Below are positions 14,336 through 23,095 of a DNA stretch of 23,095 nt, one piece after another. The stretch's first letter is position 1; the number at the start of each line of letters is the position of its first letter. Source of the DNA: a virus; IMG/VR virus record IMGVR_UViG_3300010150_000186, positions 1 to 23,095 of that record; one strand, 5' to 3'. The position numbers and the translations under genes were made by a program. The notes below the pieces were generated by a model. It saw nothing but the letters and a program-made list of their open reading frames with translations, made no database searches and was not told where the DNA came from.

Positions 14336-15013
14336 ATGTATAATATGTTTTATATATACGCATATTTGCGCAAAGACGGCACACCTTACTATATTGGTAA
14401 GGGTAAAGACAATCGAGCATTCTCTAATACTGGTAGAGCTTTCAGGCGACCAAAAGATGAAAATCGTATTGTTATAATGGAATCAAACTTGACTGAGTTA
14501 GGTGCTTTCGCATTAGAGAGAAGATATATAGAATGGTATGGTCGTAAAGATTTAGAAACTGGCACCCTACACAATCGCACGGATGGTGGTGACGGTATAC
14601 ACGGATACAAACACTCACCTGAGTCCATAAAAAAGATGAGTGAAGCACATAAGGGCAAAAAGCTTTCTGAAGAGCATAAAAGAAAAGTGAGTGATGCTCT
14701 TAGTGGTAGAAAGCTTTCTGAAGAACATAAAAGAAAAATGAGTGAGTTACGCAAGGGTAAAAAGCTTTCTGAAGAGCATAAAAGAAAAGTGAGTGATGCT
14801 CTTAGTGGTAGAAAGCTTTCAGAAGAGCATAAAAGAAAAGTGAGTGATGCTCTTAGTGGTAGAAAGCTTTCTGAAGAACATAAAAGAAAAATGAGTGCTG
14901 CTCAAAAGGGATTCAAACAAGAAATCGTAACTTGCCCTTATTGTCAAAAAACTGGTGGGAAAAACATTATGATGAGGTGGCATTATGAAAACTGTAAACA
15001 AAAAAGAACTTAG
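14336..15013 (+). CDS. GIY-YIG homing endonuclease with NUMOD3-like repeats and zinc finger
   Basis: 225 residues. GIY-YIG catalytic domain: FYIYAY (5-10), YYIGKG (18-23), catalytic Arg27, metal-binding Glu61 in [10 protein letters not shown] and Asn80 in [13 protein letters not shown]-contact region follows: a degenerate NUMOD3 unit ([15 protein letters not shown]) and five 17-residue units of KLSEEHKRK (109-193). A C2HC zinc finger closes the protein: Cys200, Cys203, His216, Cys220, in the CPYC...RWHYENC form common to phage endonucleases. It begins two bases after uvsW with no clear SD, so translation may depend on coupling. A free-standing homing enzyme would spread into uvsW-region alleles lacking it. 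Confidence 0.93.
14660..14914 (+). repeat. Five tandem 51-bp units in the endonuclease gene
   Basis: Units at 14660, 14711, 14762, 14813 and 14864, each beginning AAGCTTTC(T/A)GAAGA. Units 1, 3 and 4 encode the same 17 residues ([17 protein letters not shown]) with near-identical DNA; units 2 and 5 diverge in the last third. Each unit starts with a HindIII-type AAGCTT. Confidence 0.93.
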
Positions 15014-16248: not shown

Positions 16249-17301
16249 ATGAAAATTGCTCTACTGAACGATACCCATTGCGGCATTCGTAACTCTGGTG
16301 ATATCTTTCTTGATAATGCTGCTAAATTTTATGATGAAGTGTTCTTTCCTTATGTGAAAGAGCATAATATCAAGCAGATTGTTCATTTAGGAGACTACTA
16401 TGACAACCGTAAAGCAATCAATATCAAAGCTTTACACCACAATAGAAAGCACTTTCTTGAGCCTATGCGAGAATTGGGAATTAGAATGGATATTATTCCC
16501 GGTAATCATGATACTTATTATAAAGATACCAATAATCCAAACTCTCTCAAGGAGCTACTCGGGTTCTTTATCAATGAAGTTGCAATCATTGAAAAAGCCA
16601 AAGTATTGACATATGATAACCTCAAGTTTGCCTTGGTGCCTTGGATAAATAAAAGTAACTATGAAGAAACTATGGATTTTGTCCGTAACTGTAAGGCGGA
16701 TATTTTAGGTGGTCACCTTGAACTAAGTGGGTTTGATATGATGCGTGGCCTTAAAAATGAACACGGGATGGACCCTTCCCCATTTAAAAGGTTTGATATG
16801 GTTTTTTCTGGTCACTACCATACAAAATCTAATATTGATAATATTCATTATCTTGGCACTCAACTAGAATTCTTCTGGTCTGATGCTGGTGATAAGAAGC
16901 ATTTTCATGTTTTAGATACAGAAACCCGTGAGCTATCAGCAATTCACAACCCACATACTCTCTTCAAAAAAATTGTTTACAATGATGAAAAATACGAGTA
17001 TAATAGTGTTCAGAATTTGAAAGATAAGTTTGTAAAAGTAGTTGTGGTAAAGAAAACTAATCCTAAGATGTTTGAAGACTTTATTGATATGATTCAAGAG
17101 CAAGACATTCATGAACTGAAGATTGCTGAGAACTTTGATGATGTTTTGTCTGATGTTGATGATGCTAAGATTTCTTTAGAAGACACCACAACACTGCTAG
17201 ATAGTTATGTAGATGCTATTAGAACTGATCTAAGTAAAGATAGATTGAAAACTGATATGCGAAATCTCTACAATCAAGCGCAGACATTGGAATTAGTATG
17301 A
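16249..17301 (+). CDS. 47: Recombination endonuclease subunit gp47 (SbcD/Mre11-like)
   Basis: 350 residues (T4 gp47: 339). Calcineurin-like phosphoesterase motifs: D-x-H at NDTH (7-10), GDYYD (48-52), GNHD (85-88), GGHLE (154-158) and SGHYH (187-191), all with metal-binding residues intact. With gp46 it forms the Mre11-Rad50-type exonuclease that resects DNA ends for recombination-dependent replication, and it degrades host DNA. It begins one base after gp55. A four-base overlap (ATGA) couples it to the next small gene. Here gp46 is separated from gp47 by about 4 kb of other genes. Confidence 0.96.
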   Translation: MKIALLNDTHCGIRNSGDIFLDNAAKFYDEVFFPYVKEHNIKQIVHLGDYYDNRKAINIKALHHNRKHFLEPMRELGIRMDIIPGNHDTYYKDTNNPNSLKELLGFFINEVAIIEKAKVLTYDNLKFALVPWINKSNYEETMDFVRNCKADILGGHLELSGFDMMRGLKNEHGMDPSPFKRFDMVFSGHYHTKSNIDNIHYLGTQLEFFWSDAGDKKHFHVLDTETRELSAIHNPHTLFKKIVYNDEKYEYNSVQNLKDKFVKVVVVKKTNPKMFEDFIDMIQEQDIHELKIAENFDDVLSDVDDAKISLEDTTTLLDSYVDAIRTDLSKDRLKTDMRNLYNQAQTLELV

Positions 17302-17528
17302 AGAGATATTCTCTTAAAGGATTTATTGAGGTAGTTGAAAGAGCAGACATTATCTATGGTCAGGTAACACTTAATGCAGCAGATAGAGTTACTGCTCGTA
17401 TTAAAAAGAAAACTCTTTTAGCAAGTCTCAAAGCAATTAGGAAACCTTCTCTTTATCAGGAAGAAATTGGATACTATGGTGATTTTCAATTTGATCATAA
17501 AGGCCGCAAGATACTAAAGGTACTATGA
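17298..17528 (+). CDS. Unknown small protein between gp47 and oxygenase
   Basis: 76 residues, basic, no membrane segment. It starts MKRYSLKGFIEVVERADIIYGQVT and ends GDFQFDHKGRKILKVL; the middle has an Arg/Lys-rich helix (RVTARIKKKTLLASLKAIRK). The overlap with gp47 by four bases and with the next gene by four bases indicates coupled translation. I do not recognise a family; its place in the recombination operon makes a nucleic-acid-related role possible but unproven. Confidence 0.75.
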   Translation: MKRYSLKGFIEVVERADIIYGQVTLNAADRVTARIKKKTLLASLKAIRKPSLYQEEIGYYGDFQFDHKGRKILKVL

Positions 17529-18112
17529 TGGAAATAAAAAATTTTTTAGATAATGATATTTTTTCAGAATTTTTTAAAATTGCATATATAATCGATTCAT
17601 CTTCAACTCTTCCGTGTTTAAAAAACAACTGGTATTACACTAGTGATGGTAAACGTGGAAATATCACAAGATTTTACACAGTAACTAAAGAAAGTGATAA
17701 TGTTCTAGAGCAAGAGTTTCACCCTGAATTTGAAAAAGATATTCAAGAACAAATATATTTTTGTTTAAAAAAGGTTTTAGAAAATTATTCTGACAAGATA
17801 GAACAAGCTGGAAAATCTATGGTTGGTAAAAATTTTGATATAGGGGAAACTAAAATTGAATTCCAATACACAGATACTCTTAAATCTCACCGTCCACATA
17901 AACATGATGAAGATTTAAATGGCACGATTTATGTCTATCCAAAAGAGGCAAAAGGTACAATATTTTTTGAAATGGACCATGAACATATTATCCCTTGGGA
18001 AATGAATAAATGTTGTTTTCATACAAAAAACATTTTACACACTTTCGAAAATGATTCGGAATATAATAAAAGATTTACTATAAACTTTTTTGTGAATAAA
18101 AAGGTGCTATAA
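17525..18112 (+). CDS. Probable 2-oxoglutarate/Fe(II)-dependent oxygenase
   Basis: 195 residues. The C-terminal half has the layout of a double-stranded beta-helix oxygenase: a metal motif around HRPHKHDED (122-130), the strand GTIYVYP, the turn KGTIFFE, the 'NKCCFHTKNILHTF' strand with the distal His172, and Arg183 in KRFTINFF, placed to bind the 2-oxoglutarate carboxylate. The canonical H-x-D is not exact: His127-x-Glu129 or a shifted His/Asp pair would be needed. Such enzymes hydroxylate proteins or small molecules and are frequent in marine T4-like phages; the substrate here is unknown. Two adjacent ATGs (17525, 17528) are possible starts. It is slightly more AT-rich than its neighbours. 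Confidence 0.62.
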   Translation: MMEIKNFLDNDIFSEFFKIAYIIDSSSTLPCLKNNWYYTSDGKRGNITRFYTVTKESDNVLEQEFHPEFEKDIQEQIYFCLKKVLENYSDKIEQAGKSMVGKNFDIGETKIEFQYTDTLKSHRPHKHDEDLNGTIYVYPKEAKGTIFFEMDHEHIIPWEMNKCCFHTKNILHTFENDSEYNKRFTINFFVNKKVL

Positions 18113-18378: not shown

Positions 18379-18452
18379 GCGGGTATAGTATAATGGTATT
18401 ATAGAAGCCTTCCAAGCTTATGATAGGAGTTCGATTCTCCTTACCCGCTCCA
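18379..18452 (+). tRNA. tRNA-Gly (anticodon UCC)
   Basis: A 74-base cloverleaf. The seven-base acceptor arm GCGGGTA (18379-18385) pairs with TACCCGC (18442-18448), followed by T and an encoded CCA. The D-arm contains AATGG, the anticodon loop is CTTCCAA in a GAAGC/GCTTA-type stem, and the T-arm has GTTCGATTC. It closely resembles bacterial tRNA-Gly(UCC). It would read GGA/GGG. No introns or gaps. Confidence 0.95.
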
Positions 18453-18504: not shown

Positions 18505-19455
18505 ATGGACTATATTTCAATCTGGATGGTCGTAGGTTTTCTACTTGCATCCTACTCAGTAATCGCCAACGATTCTGTTCAGACGCTAGGAACATGGATC
18601 GCTTCAAATCAAAAAACAAACCGATTAATTATGTGGGGTGCAGCGTCAGCAGTCCTACTCTTTACTATCTGGTTCGGCTGGTACAGCAATGGGGGGGATA
18701 TCTCCTACGGTCGACTCAACAAAATTCCTTTTCAGGAAATTCAATGGTATCATGCACTCGCTCCGGCAGTACTTCTTGTACTGACTAGGTTCGGTGTTCC
18801 TGTATCTACTTCATTCCTTGTACTGTCTGCATTTGCTTCAACGTTCATCTTGGAGAAAATGCTGGTTAAGTCTATTATGGGATATGCCATTGCTGCTGTA
18901 TCCGCATACGGTATCTGGTTTATCATTAGTAAACTGTTAGACGAATCAGAACCTGTAAAAGATAATCATCGAAAATATTGGGTGGTTGCTCAGTGGGTAA
19001 CTACAGGATTCCTCTGGTATACATGGCTCAGTCATGATATGGCAAATATTGCTGTGTTCCTACCACGGGTAGTCCCTATTGAAATGATGTTCGCAATCTC
19101 TATCATCTTTGTAGCTGGTCTATATTGGATGTTTAGAGAGAACGGCGGACGAATTCAGAACGTTGTTATTAGTAAGCATAATACACGTTATGTTCGTTCC
19201 GCTACTATTATTGATTTGTTTTACTTCCTGATCCTCTGGATTTTCAAAGAAGTAAACGATATTCCAATGTCCACAACTTGGGTGTTCATTGGTCTCCTAA
19301 CAGGACGTGAGTTGGCTATTGCTACATTCACTCAGAAGCGTAAGTTCAAGACAGTCTTCCCGCTTGTCGGTAAAGACTTCTTTAAGATGATGATTGGACT
19401 CGCCGCCTCTGTTGTGATTGTGGTTCTTATCCACTCATTCTTGCAACCTCAATAG
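18505..19455 (+). CDS. PiT-family inorganic phosphate permease
   Basis: 316 residues with about 8-10 hydrophobic helices. The internal duplication of the PiT family is visible. Repeat 1 has IANDSVQTLGTWIASN (20-35) and GVPVSTSF (97-104); repeat 2 has SHDMANIAVFLPR (176-188) and DIPMSTTW (252-259). These match the two G-x-N-D-x-x-N signatures and the two P-(V/M)-S-T-(S/T) turns that build the phosphate/cation site. Each signature has one Asn replaced: the second in repeat 1 (Gln26) and the first in repeat 2 (His177), so it belongs to a divergent subfamily. It should insert in the host inner membrane and import phosphate (or metal phosphate) driven by an ion gradient. SD AAGGAA precedes ATG; a terminator follows. 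Confidence 0.85.
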   Translation: MDYISIWMVVGFLLASYSVIANDSVQTLGTWIASNQKTNRLIMWGAASAVLLFTIWFGWYSNGGDISYGRLNKIPFQEIQWYHALAPAVLLVLTRFGVPVSTSFLVLSAFASTFILEKMLVKSIMGYAIAAVSAYGIWFIISKLLDESEPVKDNHRKYWVVAQWVTTGFLWYTWLSHDMANIAVFLPRVVPIEMMFAISIIFVAGLYWMFRENGGRIQNVVISKHNTRYVRSATIIDLFYFLILWIFKEVNDIPMSTTWVFIGLLTGRELAIATFTQKRKFKTVFPLVGKDFFKMMIGLAASVVIVVLIHSFLQPQ

Positions 19456-19466
19456 AGGTACATCTG

Positions 19467-19500
19467 AAGGGGGAGTGTAAAAATTCCCTCTTTTTATTTT
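19467..19500 (+). terminator. Hairpin terminator after the PiT gene
   Basis: AAGGGGGA (19467-19474) pairs with TCCCTCTT (19485-19492) with one G-U pair around a ten-base loop, followed by a T-rich tail (TTTATTTT). It separates the permease from the binding-protein gene. Confidence 0.7.
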
Positions 19501-19529: not shown

Positions 19530-20633
19530 ATGCTAAAGAAAATCTTTGCATCCCTCACCCTCTCTATTGCAACTGCAACTGCTGCATTTGCTGAAACCAA
19601 AGTAGGGTTCATCTATGTAGGTCCGATTGGAGACCTTGGATGGACTTACCGACATGATGTTGGTCGTCTTGCTGTAGAAGAAGCCTATGGTGCAGACGTG
19701 TCTACTACCTATCTGGAAATGGTCCCAGAAGGACCAGAAGCAGTTGAAGCCATTACACAACTGGCAGAAACTGGACACGATATTATTTTCACTACCTCTT
19801 TTGGTTACATGGACGCAACGAATGAAGTTGCTGCTAACTACCCAGACGTGGCTTTCGAGCATGCTACTGGTTATGTCCGTGATACTGATAACATGGCAAC
19901 CTTCTCCGCACGATTCTATGAAGGTCGTGTAGTTCAAGGTTTCATTGCTGCTAATATGACTGAATCTAATAAGATTGGTTATATTGCATCTTTCCCTATT
20001 CCAGAAGTAGTGCGTGGTATTAACGCATTTATGCTGGAAGCACAGAAGCACAATCCAGATATTGAAGTAGAAATTATTTGGCTCTACACTTGGTTTGACC
20101 CTGCAAAAGAAGCAGCAGCCGCACAAGCATTGATTGATGAAGGTGCAGATATTATCGTACAGCATACTGACTCACCTGCACCTGTGCAGATTGCAGAAAA
20201 GAATGGCGTCTATGCATTTGGTCAGGCTTCGAATATGTCTCGGTTTGGTCCTAATGCGCACCTCGTTTCTATTGTAGATGATTGGGATACTTACTATGTT
20301 GATCGTGTAGGTGAAGTAATGAACGGCACTTGGACTGGTGGTGATACTTGGTGGGGTTTCACTAAAGACGGTAAAGGTGGTGAAGTCGGCATGGTTGCAC
20401 TTGAAAGTTACAACACAGCCGCAATGGGTGCAGGTCTTGTGCAGCAAGCACAGGTACTTGAAGCATCATTGGCAAATGGTGATCGACATGCATTCCCATG
20501 TGAAGGTCTGTTGAAGCAAGATGGTTCTGTTCCTGATGAGTGTGCTGCTGGTGCAGAACATTTGGATGACTGGCCAACTCTGCTGTCTATGGATTGGTAT
20601 GTAGAAGGTATTGAAGCATCACTGCCGAACTAA
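19530..20633 (+). CDS. Periplasmic BMP-family substrate-binding protein (PnrA/BmpA-like)
   Basis: 367 residues. A Sec signal peptide is clear: Lys3-Lys4, a hydrophobic core to about 19, and A-F-A|E cleavage after Ala21. There is no lipobox Cys, so it would be soluble in the periplasm. The mature protein follows the BMP fold: KVGFIYVGPIGDLGWTYRHD (25-44), 'HDIIFTTSFGYMD', 'FSARFYEGRVVQGFIAANMT', 'GYIASFPIPEVVRGINAF' and 'GADIIVQHTDSPAP'. Relatives feed ABC importers for purine nucleosides or bases. No ABC permease or ATPase gene is in the window, so it would have to work with the host importer. SD AAGGAA precedes the start. The gene looks recently acquired and intact. Confidence 0.9.
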   Translation: MLKKIFASLTLSIATATAAFAETKVGFIYVGPIGDLGWTYRHDVGRLAVEEAYGADVSTTYLEMVPEGPEAVEAITQLAETGHDIIFTTSFGYMDATNEVAANYPDVAFEHATGYVRDTDNMATFSARFYEGRVVQGFIAANMTESNKIGYIASFPIPEVVRGINAFMLEAQKHNPDIEVEIIWLYTWFDPAKEAAAAQALIDEGADIIVQHTDSPAPVQIAEKNGVYAFGQASNMSRFGPNAHLVSIVDDWDTYYVDRVGEVMNGTWTGGDTWWGFTKDGKGGEVGMVALESYNTAAMGAGLVQQAQVLEASLANGDRHAFPCEGLLKQDGSVPDECAAGAEHLDDWPTLLSMDWYVEGIEASLPN

Positions 20634-20877: not shown

Positions 20878-21057
20878 ATGACCAACATTCGTTATCCACA
20901 CTACCTTGTTGAAGTCTTCAACAAAGCAGGTGAAGTGATTCATACAGAATATGAATACTCAGGTCATGCAGCATCAGATGAAGCGATGTATTACCGAAAC
21001 AAGTATTGGGATAAGGTTGAGATTATCGTCTCCTACATTGCGAAAGAAGAGAAGTGA
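20878..21057 (+). CDS. Unknown 59-residue protein
   Basis: A short frame with a clear SD (AAAGGAAA, ~9 bases before ATG), its own promoter candidate at 20816 and its own terminator at 21069. It reads MTNIRYPHYLVEVFNKAGEV, then IHTEYEYSGHAASDEAMYY and RNKYWDKVEIIVSYIAKEEK: an open alpha/beta pattern of strand, helix, strand. The monocistronic layout argues strongly that it is expressed. I do not recognise the family. Small early proteins of this type in T4-like phages often act on host enzymes, but nothing here shows a target. Confidence 0.75.
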   Translation: MTNIRYPHYLVEVFNKAGEVIHTEYEYSGHAASDEAMYYRNKYWDKVEIIVSYIAKEEK

Positions 21058-21068
21058 CATAAATGCAA

Positions 21069-21107
21069 CACCCCCTAGAGAAATGCCTTTAGGGGGTTGT
21101 TTTTTTC
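21069..21107 (+). terminator. Intrinsic terminator after the 59-residue gene
   Basis: CCCCCTA (21071-21077) pairs perfectly with TAGGGGG (21090-21096) around a 12-base loop, followed by TTG and a run of seven T (21100-21106). Confidence 0.9.
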
Positions 21108-21117
21108 TCAATAATGA

Positions 21118-21134
21118 TTACATTAATAATGTAA
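21118..21134. promoter_or_regulatory. 17-bp palindrome before the 113-residue gene
   Basis: TTACATTA-A-TAATGTAA is a perfect inverted repeat with a one-base centre. It lies between the terminator at 21069 and the SD of the next gene (AAGGA, 21142-21146). Symmetry and position suggest a protein-binding operator. Confidence 0.5.
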
Positions 21135-21154
21135 GAGAAAAAAGGAATGAACTT

Positions 21155-21496
21155 ATGAAAATGACCGAGAATGTATTCAACCAACTGTCGCAAGACTTTC
21201 ACACTATTCTTACTGAATACTTCCGTTGTTCCATATCAGACGATCCTAAAGAAGCAATGCTAGATGCTTGGGTAGTTTTCAAGGAAGTATGGCAACAGCG
21301 TGGTTATGATGATACACATCCACGGTGGAATCATGGTATTCGGGTGCTGTCACCTGATTGGTCAGACAAGTGGAATATAGATGGTAGTCAAACGGGATAC
21401 CTTGCTTGGGTCTATGACAATGAAGGTGACCCAATCCATGACGATCATATTCAGACTGCACTAAAGAAAATCGTTTCGAAATATCATAAGGCATAA
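21155..21496 (+). CDS. Unknown 113-residue protein
   Basis: The start ATG at 21155 has AAGGA eight bases upstream and gives MKMTENVFNQLSQDFHTILTE. The same frame is open further upstream to 20951, but that extension runs across the terminator and out-of-frame through the preceding gene, so it is rejected. The protein has an N-terminal helical part (to ~45) and a Trp/Asp-rich second half: DTHPRWNHGIRVLSPDWSDKWN, then GYLAWVYDNEGDPIHDDHIQTALKK. No catalytic motif or membrane segment is recognised. The gene sits alone between a terminator and the gp46 promoter. Confidence 0.75.
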   Translation: MKMTENVFNQLSQDFHTILTEYFRCSISDDPKEAMLDAWVVFKEVWQQRGYDDTHPRWNHGIRVLSPDWSDKWNIDGSQTGYLAWVYDNEGDPIHDDHIQTALKKIVSKYHKA

Positions 21497-21533: not shown

Positions 21534-21567
21534 ACTCTTCATTATGTTTGAGTGATTAGGAGAAGTC
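21507..21567. repeat. Long inverted repeat spanning the gp46 promoter and SD
   Basis: GACTTCCTAATCA (21507-21519) is matched by TGATTAGGAGAAGTC (21553-21567): 13 base pairs with a two-base bulge (AG/TC). The left arm lies in the promoter spacer; the right arm contains the gp46 SD (TAGGAG, 21557-21562). Confidence 0.8.
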
Positions 21568-23095
21568 TTATCATTAAGTTTCATTCTGTTCAGTATCGGA
21601 ATTTTTTAAGTACCGGGAACAATTTTACAAAGATTGAATTAGACAAGGCACCTACTACTTTGATCGTAGGTGCTAATGGTGCAGGTAAATCTACTATGCT
21701 AGATGCACTGTCATTTGGTCTATTCGGAAAGCCTTACAGAAACATCAACAAACCACAACTTATCAATACTATTAATAGCAAGGATTGTGTGGTCGAGGTC
21801 GAGTTCTCCGTCGGTCCTAGCAGGTATAAAGTTATTCGGGGTATCAAGCCTAACGTGTTTGAAATTTACAAGAATGGTGAGGTTATTAATGAATCTTCCC
21901 ATGCTAAAGAATTTCAGAAACTACTAGAGCAAAACATTCTGAAACTAAATCACAAATCGTTTCATCAGATTGTAGTGCTTGGCTCATCCTCTTTTATTCC
22001 TTTCATGCAACTGACTGCTGCGCATAGACGTGAGGTTATTGAAGACCTCTTGGATATTAATATCTTTTCTAAGATGAATATTGTTCTGAAAGACAATATT
22101 GCTAGTCTGAAGGATAAAATCCGTGATGCTGCACATCAGGTAGATATTGTCAAGAATAAGATTGATGTTCAACGCAAATACATTAGTGATATTAAGAATC
22201 TAAACGAGGAAAAGAACCGTGAGAAGCAAATTGAAATCAAGACGCAGGAAGATACAATTGAGCAGATCAATCTTGAAAATGAAGAAATACAAGAAACTCT
22301 TGCAGCAAAGTATGATCAGGTCTCAGACCGATTAGTAGAAGCAGGTCAGTCTTTTCAATCTGACCAACACAAAAAGACGCAACTTAAAACGGAGATGAAT
22401 AGACTTGTTAAAGAGGATAAGTTCTTTCAAGACAATGACGTTTGCCCGACTTGTACGCAAGAGATTAACCAGACTATTAAAGAACAAAAGTCTAAGGGTA
22501 TCTCAGCGCAAGCGAAGAAAATCCAAAAGACGTTTCAGACGCTAGAAGAGCAACTGTTTGCTGGTAAAGCATTGGTAGATGAACTTCAAGAGCAGAGTAA
22601 GCAGTCTATGGAATTACATGCTGCTATGCGTGACAATAATACTAAGATTAGTATGTCTCGCAAACTTATTCAAAAGTTAGAGCAAGAGATTACTGATACA
22701 TCTGATAGTAAAGATAATATTGTTCAGGCTAACAAAGACCTTGAAGACTTTATTGATGAGAAGGATGGTCTACTTACACATAAACTAGAACTGTCTGAAG
22801 AATACGACTACAGCAGTGTGATTGCTGATATGCTGAAAGATACTGGTATCAAGACCAAGATTATTCGGCAATATCTGCCTGTGATGAATAAACTGGTTAA
22901 TCAGTATCTACAGACACTGGACTTCTTTGTTCATTTTGAATTGAATGAAAGTTTTGGTGAGACTATTCGTTCACGGCACCGTGATAGTTTTTCTTATGAC
23001 TCTTTCAGTGAAGGTGAGAAGCAACGCATTGACCTTGCACTGCTGTTTACATGGAGACAGATTGCTAAGATGAAAAACTCTGTAGCAACCAATCT
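21552..23095 (+). CDS. 46: Recombination endonuclease subunit gp46 (SbcC/Rad50-like), 3' end cut by window
   Basis: About 514 residues are visible (T4 gp46: 560). The N-terminus has IKFHSVQYRNFLSTGN and Walker A GANGAGKST (40-48, counted from the GTG). Then come the Q-loop region 'FHQIVVLGSSSFIPFM', a long coiled-coil with the CPTC zinc hook (Cys298, Cys301), and the ABC signature FSEGEKQRIDLALL (485-498). Walker B lies beyond the end. With gp47 it forms the end-resecting nuclease complex. No ATG exists at the 5' end: an in-frame TGA at 21549 is followed by GTG at 21552 without SD. The SD TAGGAG at 21557 would instead serve ATC (21570) or ATT (21573), giving M-I-K-F or M-K-F, close to family starts. 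Confidence 0.95.
   Translation, partial: MIRRSLIIKFHSVQYRNFLSTGNNFTKIELDKAPTTLIVGANGAGKSTMLDALSFGLFGKPYRNINKPQLINTINSKDCVVEVEFSVGPSRYKVIRGIKPNVFEIYKNGEVINESSHAKEFQKLLEQNILKLNHKSFHQIVVLGSSSFIPFMQLTAAHRREVIEDLLDINIFSKMNIVLKDNIASLKDKIRDAAHQVDIVKNKIDVQRKYISDIKNLNEEKNREKQIEIKTQEDTIEQINLENEEIQETLAAKYDQVSDRLVEAGQSFQSDQHKKTQLKTEMNRLVKEDKFFQDNDVCPTCTQEINQTIKEQKSKGISAQAKKIQKTFQTLEEQLFAGKALVDELQEQSKQSMELHAAMRDNNTKISMSRKLIQKLEQEITDTSDSKDNIVQANKDLEDFIDEKDGLLTHKLELSEEYDYSSVIADMLKDTGIKTKIIRQYLPVMNKLVNQYLQTLDFFVHFELNESFGETIRSRHRDSFSYDSFSEGEKQRIDLALLFTWRQIAKMKNSVATN

Follow-up and report, generated by a model that had tools for sequence, protein, structure and literature searches.

The stretch of viral DNA analyzed here, the window (23,095 nt; IMG/VR record IMGVR_UViG_3300010150_000186), carries T4-like head and tail genes. 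In a PHROGs profile scan, its portal protein matched phrog_213 (E 2.4e-202) and its major head protein phrog_138 (E 8.1e-161), and a terminase, UvsW, a gp47-like phosphoesterase and a gp46-like AAA protein are also encoded. A preliminary description had placed a PiT-type phosphate permease inside a T4-like phage core, and these genes confirmed that setting, with the refinement that the permease gene is located at the junction of the recombination genes gp47 and gp46, outside the virion structural genes (Table 1). The closest GenBank phage to the window is C48C1, with a terminase identity of 67.7%. In C48C1, gp46 comes directly after gp47; the permease block of the window therefore appears to have been inserted between the two.

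Table 1. Features of the permease locus (window coordinates)
Feature	Position	Strand	Evidence and remarks
gp47-like (SbcD) phosphoesterase	16249..17301	+	PF00149, E 3.9e-10; left border of the inserted block; same place in C48C1
tRNA-Gly (TCC)	18379..18452	+	ARAGORN and Rfam; directly upstream of the permease, kept there in close relatives
PiT-like permease, 316 aa	18505..19455	+	Profile and fold match to 6L85; hhalign to canonical PiT; dN/dS about 0.05
First signature N-D-S-V-Q, residues 22-26	18568..18582	+	Canonical N-D-x-x-N with last Asn changed to Gln; aligned with GANDxAN
First turn P-V-S-T-S, residues 99-103	18799..18813	+	P, V, S and T invariant; aligned with PVSTT
Second signature H-D-M-A-N, residues 177-181	19033..19047	+	Canonical N-D-x-x-N with first Asn changed to His; aligned with second PiT signature
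Second turn P-M-S-T-T, residues 254-258	19264..19278	+	Invariant in 184 members; aligned with second P-x-S-T-T turn of PiT
Terminator-like hairpin, T-rich tail	19466..19493	+	Directly 3' of the permease; consensus scan only
PnrA/BMP-type ABC substrate-binding protein	19530..20633	+	PF02608, E 2.1e-53; signal-peptide-like start
gp46-like (SbcC) ATPase	21552..23093	+	PF13476, E 3.3e-17; right border; runs off the window

The permease ORF starts with an ATG that is preceded by a Shine-Dalgarno-like AAAAAGG. Because full-length relatives at 72–100% identity were found in many viral contigs, and the dN/dS values of 0.037–0.065 in viruses correspond to strong purifying selection, it is no chance ORF, and these ratios indicate that its function is retained in viruses. 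Among the other ORFs of the window, the one directly after uvsW (14336–15013) contains six NUMOD3 motifs, matches GIY-YIG weakly and is likely a homing-endonuclease-type gene; a different GIY-YIG-like ORF lies near this place in a viral relative (L008). A 195-aa ORF of low GC content (27%; 17525–18112), present only in the nearest relatives of the window, contains near its end a His/Asp pattern resembling 2OG-Fe(II) oxygenases, with no family match above threshold. The ORF at 20951–21496 contains a terminator-like hairpin (21070–21097) inside its long reading frame, so its true start is probably later than in the ORF list.

Single-sequence HMM scans of the window permease against Pfam, NCBIfam and PHROGs gave nothing useful, and the clade to which it belongs has no name in these three libraries. 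Against Pfam PHO4 (PF01384), the permease scored 7.7 bits (E 2.1), below the curated cut-off of 33.7 bits, and the bacterial clade members likewise remained below this cut-off; at a permissive E ≤10, PHO4 was listed for 17 of 20 close relatives, with a best E of 3.8e-4. The PHO4/PiT search that had been proposed as a check was therefore negative with the single sequence, and became positive once family profiles were used. A profile that included bacterial relatives matched only 6L85, a sodium-dependent phosphate transporter, among the PDB sequences (E 4.3e-7). When the family profile was aligned with 18 canonical PiT proteins by hhalign, 292 columns were matched (E 1.5e-6, probability 90%), with ANDSVQ in register with GANDxAN, PVSTS with PVSTT, SHDMAN with the second PiT signature, and PMSTT with the second turn. 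An hhalign comparison of the N- and C-terminal halves gave a weak signal for an internal repeat (E 0.005–0.026), in which the two P-x-S-T turns were aligned.

An initial AlphaFold2 model, for which a shallow alignment limited to close viral relatives was used, reached a pLDDT of only 53 and was replaced by a final model from a deeper alignment including bacterial homologs (pLDDT 83, pTM 0.82). Foldseek with this model retrieved 6L85 (E 3.0e-5), and VIA-align superimposed the two over 284 residues at 3.7 Å with a Z score of 21.2, while the next fold reached only 6.0; a BFVD search with the model found no matching viral structure. Together, the profile alignments and the predicted structure establish PiT homology and a PiT fold over the full length of the permease, as had been read from the sequence beforehand. 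Since homology and fold hold, while the Pfam cut-off is not reached and the published core motif is not preserved (see below), the protein is named PiT-like and assigned to a divergent PiT-fold clade.

Both signatures were found where the preliminary description had placed them, and, like the two P-x-S-T turns, they were invariant or nearly so across 184 clade members. These comprised 106 members from viral contigs and 78 from genome collections, a few of the latter probably being phage contigs binned with bacteria. A different Asn is indeed lost from each signature, replaced by Q26 in ANDSVQ (residues 21–26) and by H177 in SHDMAN (residues 176–181). The extended motifs ANDSVQTL and SHDMANIA were present in 184/184 members, so that both signatures depart by one Asn from the GANDVANA-type core published for the two PiT/PHO4 signature sequences (PMC3126765). 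Consistently, N22, D23, S24, Q26, H177, D178, A180 and N181 were invariant in all 184, as were the P, S and T of both turns. Because viral and bacterial members share the altered signatures without exception, these mark an old cellular clade rather than a phage innovation, and the viruses inherited them.

A mutant study of human PiT2 found D28, D506, S113, S593 and H502 critical for Pi transport. By motif register, rather than by direct alignment to PiT2, the invariant D23, D178, S101 and S256 correspond to the first four of these residues. The counterpart of H502, four positions before the Asp, is an invariant W174, and the conserved His of the second signature is absent; a SAR11 canonical PiT (in L132) likewise has no H502-type His. 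Other invariant residues were found at cytoplasmic or loop positions, for example K224 and P187-R188. The changed Asn residues had been taken to suggest a subfamily with altered ion or substrate preference. The distinct clade is supported, its signatures being common to all bacterial homologs, while an altered preference is possible, and the bacterial neighborhoods still point to phosphate.

In the viral group that includes the window, the gene order is gp47, small ORFs, tRNA-Gly, permease, and then one or two binding-protein genes. The permease is followed by the PnrA-like gene alone in the window and in L001–L006, by pstS and then the PnrA-like gene in L008–L012, and, within the sequence available, by pstS alone in L014 and L015. 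The PnrA-like protein is about 90% identical and in the same place in close viral relatives, and pstS was found directly downstream of the permease in nine close relatives (one copy cut by the contig end and one partly so). In L012, a permuted, Alphaproteobacteria-type tmRNA replaces the tRNA-Gly directly upstream of the permease, and a manA RNA motif was also observed on this contig (5633–5973 and 3616–3788). Other viral groups carry the permease at other sites, with PRPP synthetase near it in 22 loci (L039, 6826–7785, and 21 others), usually just downstream. No phoB or phoR gene was found near the permease in the viral loci surveyed. These viral partners fit phosphate and nucleotide supply. 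The suggestion that a single-polypeptide permease would raise uptake without host ABC partners held in part: the permease is one polypeptide, yet the sister viruses place pstS, which encodes the binding protein of an ABC system, beside it.

In the bacterial locus L103, a PhoB-type regulator and then a PhoR-type kinase immediately precede the gene, with an OprP/O-type porin nearby. Across the bacterial loci, a kinase was adjacent in nine, a Porin_O_P-like gene was present in eight, and DUF47 and a canonical PiT were located within 6 kb of the gene in 20. In L115, a PhoR/PhoB-type pair, LpxH, a glycosyltransferase, a MIP channel and a phosphatase/ArsC-like gene lie beside the permease (names beyond the Pfam matches are interpretive), a set that resembles the flexible phosphate islands of HIMB59 described in PMC10734472. 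According to that study, 55 of the 67 genomes in one family have the low-affinity Pit; the text consulted does not set the present clade apart as a separate transporter. The bacterial and viral contexts both point to phosphate. Arsenic-type neighbors were also observed, namely the MIP-type channel and the phosphatase/ArsC-like gene of L115 (9365–10448), and an SBF-family (ACR3-like) transporter was found downstream of the permease in L121 and L133.

Relatives of the permease are encoded in at least 547 IMG/VR stretches, an earlier search having given at least 350. The view that a full permease is much less usual in phages was therefore not upheld for viral metagenomes, yet a tblastn search of about 50,700 GenBank phage records returned no clade member. 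With a canonical PiT as query, tblastn against GenBank phages matched three tiny contigs, two draft bacterial genomes and one 214-kb record; all six look like host DNA and were rejected. Bacterial homologs at 57–66% identity were found in Pelagibacteraceae (including the isolate HTCC9565), other Alphaproteobacteria, Flavobacteriales and a few others. A profile search of Alphaproteobacteria detected the clade in 7 of 289; an eighth, weak match (L204) proved to be a canonical PiT.

In a 49-row tree, a quick build with SH-aLRT support only, the viral rows formed one fully supported cluster, inside which the only genome-collection rows were contigs of Water_Bin34 and one bin, L087. Sister to this cluster are L088, a chromosomal alphaproteobacterial gene with genes of the LpxH and glycosyltransferase types beside it, and L089, which comes from a short contig binned with Pelagibacter. 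These positions fit acquisition from marine alphaproteobacteria, from which T4-like marine phages probably obtained the permease. Carriage by a T4-like virus was likewise borne out, and the gene has the attributes of an auxiliary metabolic gene: it is probably host-derived, lies between gp47 and gp46 in both the window and L010, has a dN/dS of about 0.05, and has bacterial homologs at the identities given above. The public bin Rhodobacteraceae bacterium Water_Bin34 (L083–L086) contains nine T4-like major head protein matches on different contigs and several permease copies, and seems heavily mixed with phage contigs.

With respect to the host, the nearest capsid and terminase are those of C48C1, which has no recorded host, followed by Methylophilales phage Melnitz, S-SKS1 and HTVC008M. 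The phage is thus placed near marine heterotroph myophages (C48C1, Melnitz and Pelagibacter phage HTVC008M) and cyanophage S-SKS1; a literature search retrieved no paper naming C48C1. The L012 tmRNA (Rfam alpha_tmRNA, 91 bits) hints at an alphaproteobacterial host, but this hint is weakened because Melnitz has such a tmRNA although its host is a gammaproteobacterium (PMC9004378). A cyanobacterial host was rejected, as a psbA-type gene was present in none of 24 permease-bearing viral records, most of them fragments. Host assignment by co-binning with Water_Bin34 was also rejected, on account of the phage head protein matches in that bin. Marine alphaproteobacteria are tentatively favored as hosts.

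From this evidence, the gene is likely to encode a stand-alone secondary transporter of PiT fold, belonging to a divergent clade of that fold, that imports Pi by an ion gradient for phage nucleotide and DNA synthesis. During infection, the permease would insert into the host inner membrane and bind Pi between its two half-repeats, at the N-D/H-D and P-x-S-T motifs; Pi as substrate, the inward direction and the coupling ion are all putative. The imported Pi would enter nucleotide and DNA synthesis, to the presumed benefit of the phage, and infected cells would thus probably import more phosphate for viral DNA. In the sister phages, the permease would act in parallel to a phage PstS feeding the host Pst ABC system, while in the window it would act beside a PnrA-type protein feeding a host nucleoside-type ABC importer. 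The homology, the fold, the Asp and Ser residues shared with PiT2, the purifying selection and the phosphate-gene context in bacteria and viruses count for this reading. Counting against it are the single-sequence score below the PHO4 cut-off, the loss of one Asn per signature, and the canonical PiT that lies nearby in some genomes, so that the two may have different roles. In addition, a low affinity is usually ascribed to PiT proteins, which fits poorly with a phosphorus-poor sea. A bolder and tentative extension is that the branch with Gln in the first and His in the second signature is functionally distinct, with another ion coupling or a much higher affinity than the classical low-affinity Pit. 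Streamlined ocean bacteria would then have in it an ATP-free, high-affinity Pi importer, which T4-like phages would have carried into many lineages.

The main rival, which we consider unlikely, retains the PiT fold and assigns it mainly to another oxyanion (sulfate, phosphite or arsenate) or to a metal-phosphate complex, with the Gln and His retuning the site. It arises from the Asn lost in each signature and from the canonical PiT beside the gene in some genomes. Both substitutions are invariant, in Pelagibacterales-type genomes the adjacent canonical PiT suggests different jobs for the two proteins, and the SBF-family transporter, MIP channel and ArsC-like gene near some bacterial copies would suit such a substrate. 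The PiT family also includes sulfate carriers, such as CysP. However, the neighbors are otherwise PhoB/PhoR-type regulators, phosphate-selective-type porins, PstS and DUF47, and since arsenate enters cells by Pi carriers, arsenic genes are to be expected beside a Pi importer. It is improbable that the protein mainly serves instead to sense or export phosphate or to modulate the phosphate signaling of the host, for example by keeping the Pho response off or on. The adjacent PhoB/PhoR-type genes in bacteria and the extreme conservation of cytoplasmic or loop residues would agree with such a role, but the full transporter fold with both half-sites kept does not, and viral copies are accompanied by genes for uptake and nucleotide supply rather than by phoB or phoR. 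Close homologs in bacterial chromosomes would suit a host fragment misassembled into the phage contig, or a passing passenger of it, but this very improbable reading is already largely refuted. Independent contigs such as L010 repeat the order gp47, small ORFs, tRNA-Gly, permease, binding protein, gp46; moreover, dN/dS is low, hundreds of viral contigs have the gene and the viral copies cluster on the tree.

Compared with PiT/PHO4 proteins (PF01384; Thermotoga PiT 6L85, E. coli PitA, human PiT1/PiT2), the permease shares the fold, the two-fold motif layout, both signature Asp residues and the Ser/Thr of both turns, and its length is close to that of a minimal bacterial PiT. It differs in its score below the PF01384 cut-off, in having ANDSVQ and SHDMAN instead of GANDxAN twice, and in forming its own clade. 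Marine cyanophage pstS, phoA and phoH are thought to raise phosphorus supply in phosphorus-poor water. The permease would likewise be a phosphorus-supply phage gene, and pstS is its next-door gene in the sister phages of the window; however, the cyanophage genes need host ABC subunits, encode a phosphatase or are of unclear function, whereas the permease is complete in one polypeptide.

Virus-carried PHO4 is already known, from algal viruses and from one phage-derived pho4 metagenomic clone that branches near alphaproteobacterium HIMB59 (Monier et al., 2012; PMC3429862). Those are also PHO4-superfamily phosphate permeases taken from hosts, but, compared by description only, the algal-virus genes are eukaryote-type and the phage clone is one sequence, recovered with a PHO4 HMM. 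For soil phages, likewise compared by description, pit has been listed as one of the phosphorus genes (PMC10987575); bacteriophage contigs of another habitat thus also carry a pit-type gene. The new elements here are how large and coherent this PiT-like clade is among marine T4-like phages, the altered signatures that are invariant in it and common to bacteria, and the phosphate and nucleotide genes that accompany it. Discussion of how phages affect ocean phosphorus has centered mostly on pstS, phoA and phoH, and a one-gene permease would be a more direct lever on phosphate uptake. As the clade, although abundant in marine viral contigs, lies below the Pfam cut-off and is unnamed in the standard family libraries, surveys relying on that cut-off would miss it; if it is a true Pi transporter, counts of viral phosphate genes and the SAR11-type routes of phosphate uptake would need revision. 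The adjacent PnrA/BMP-type protein of the window might feed nucleosides to a host importer, and its sole matches in GenBank phages, at <40% identity, are unannotated genes of unclassified "Bacteriophage sp." contigs, nearly all of them human faecal.
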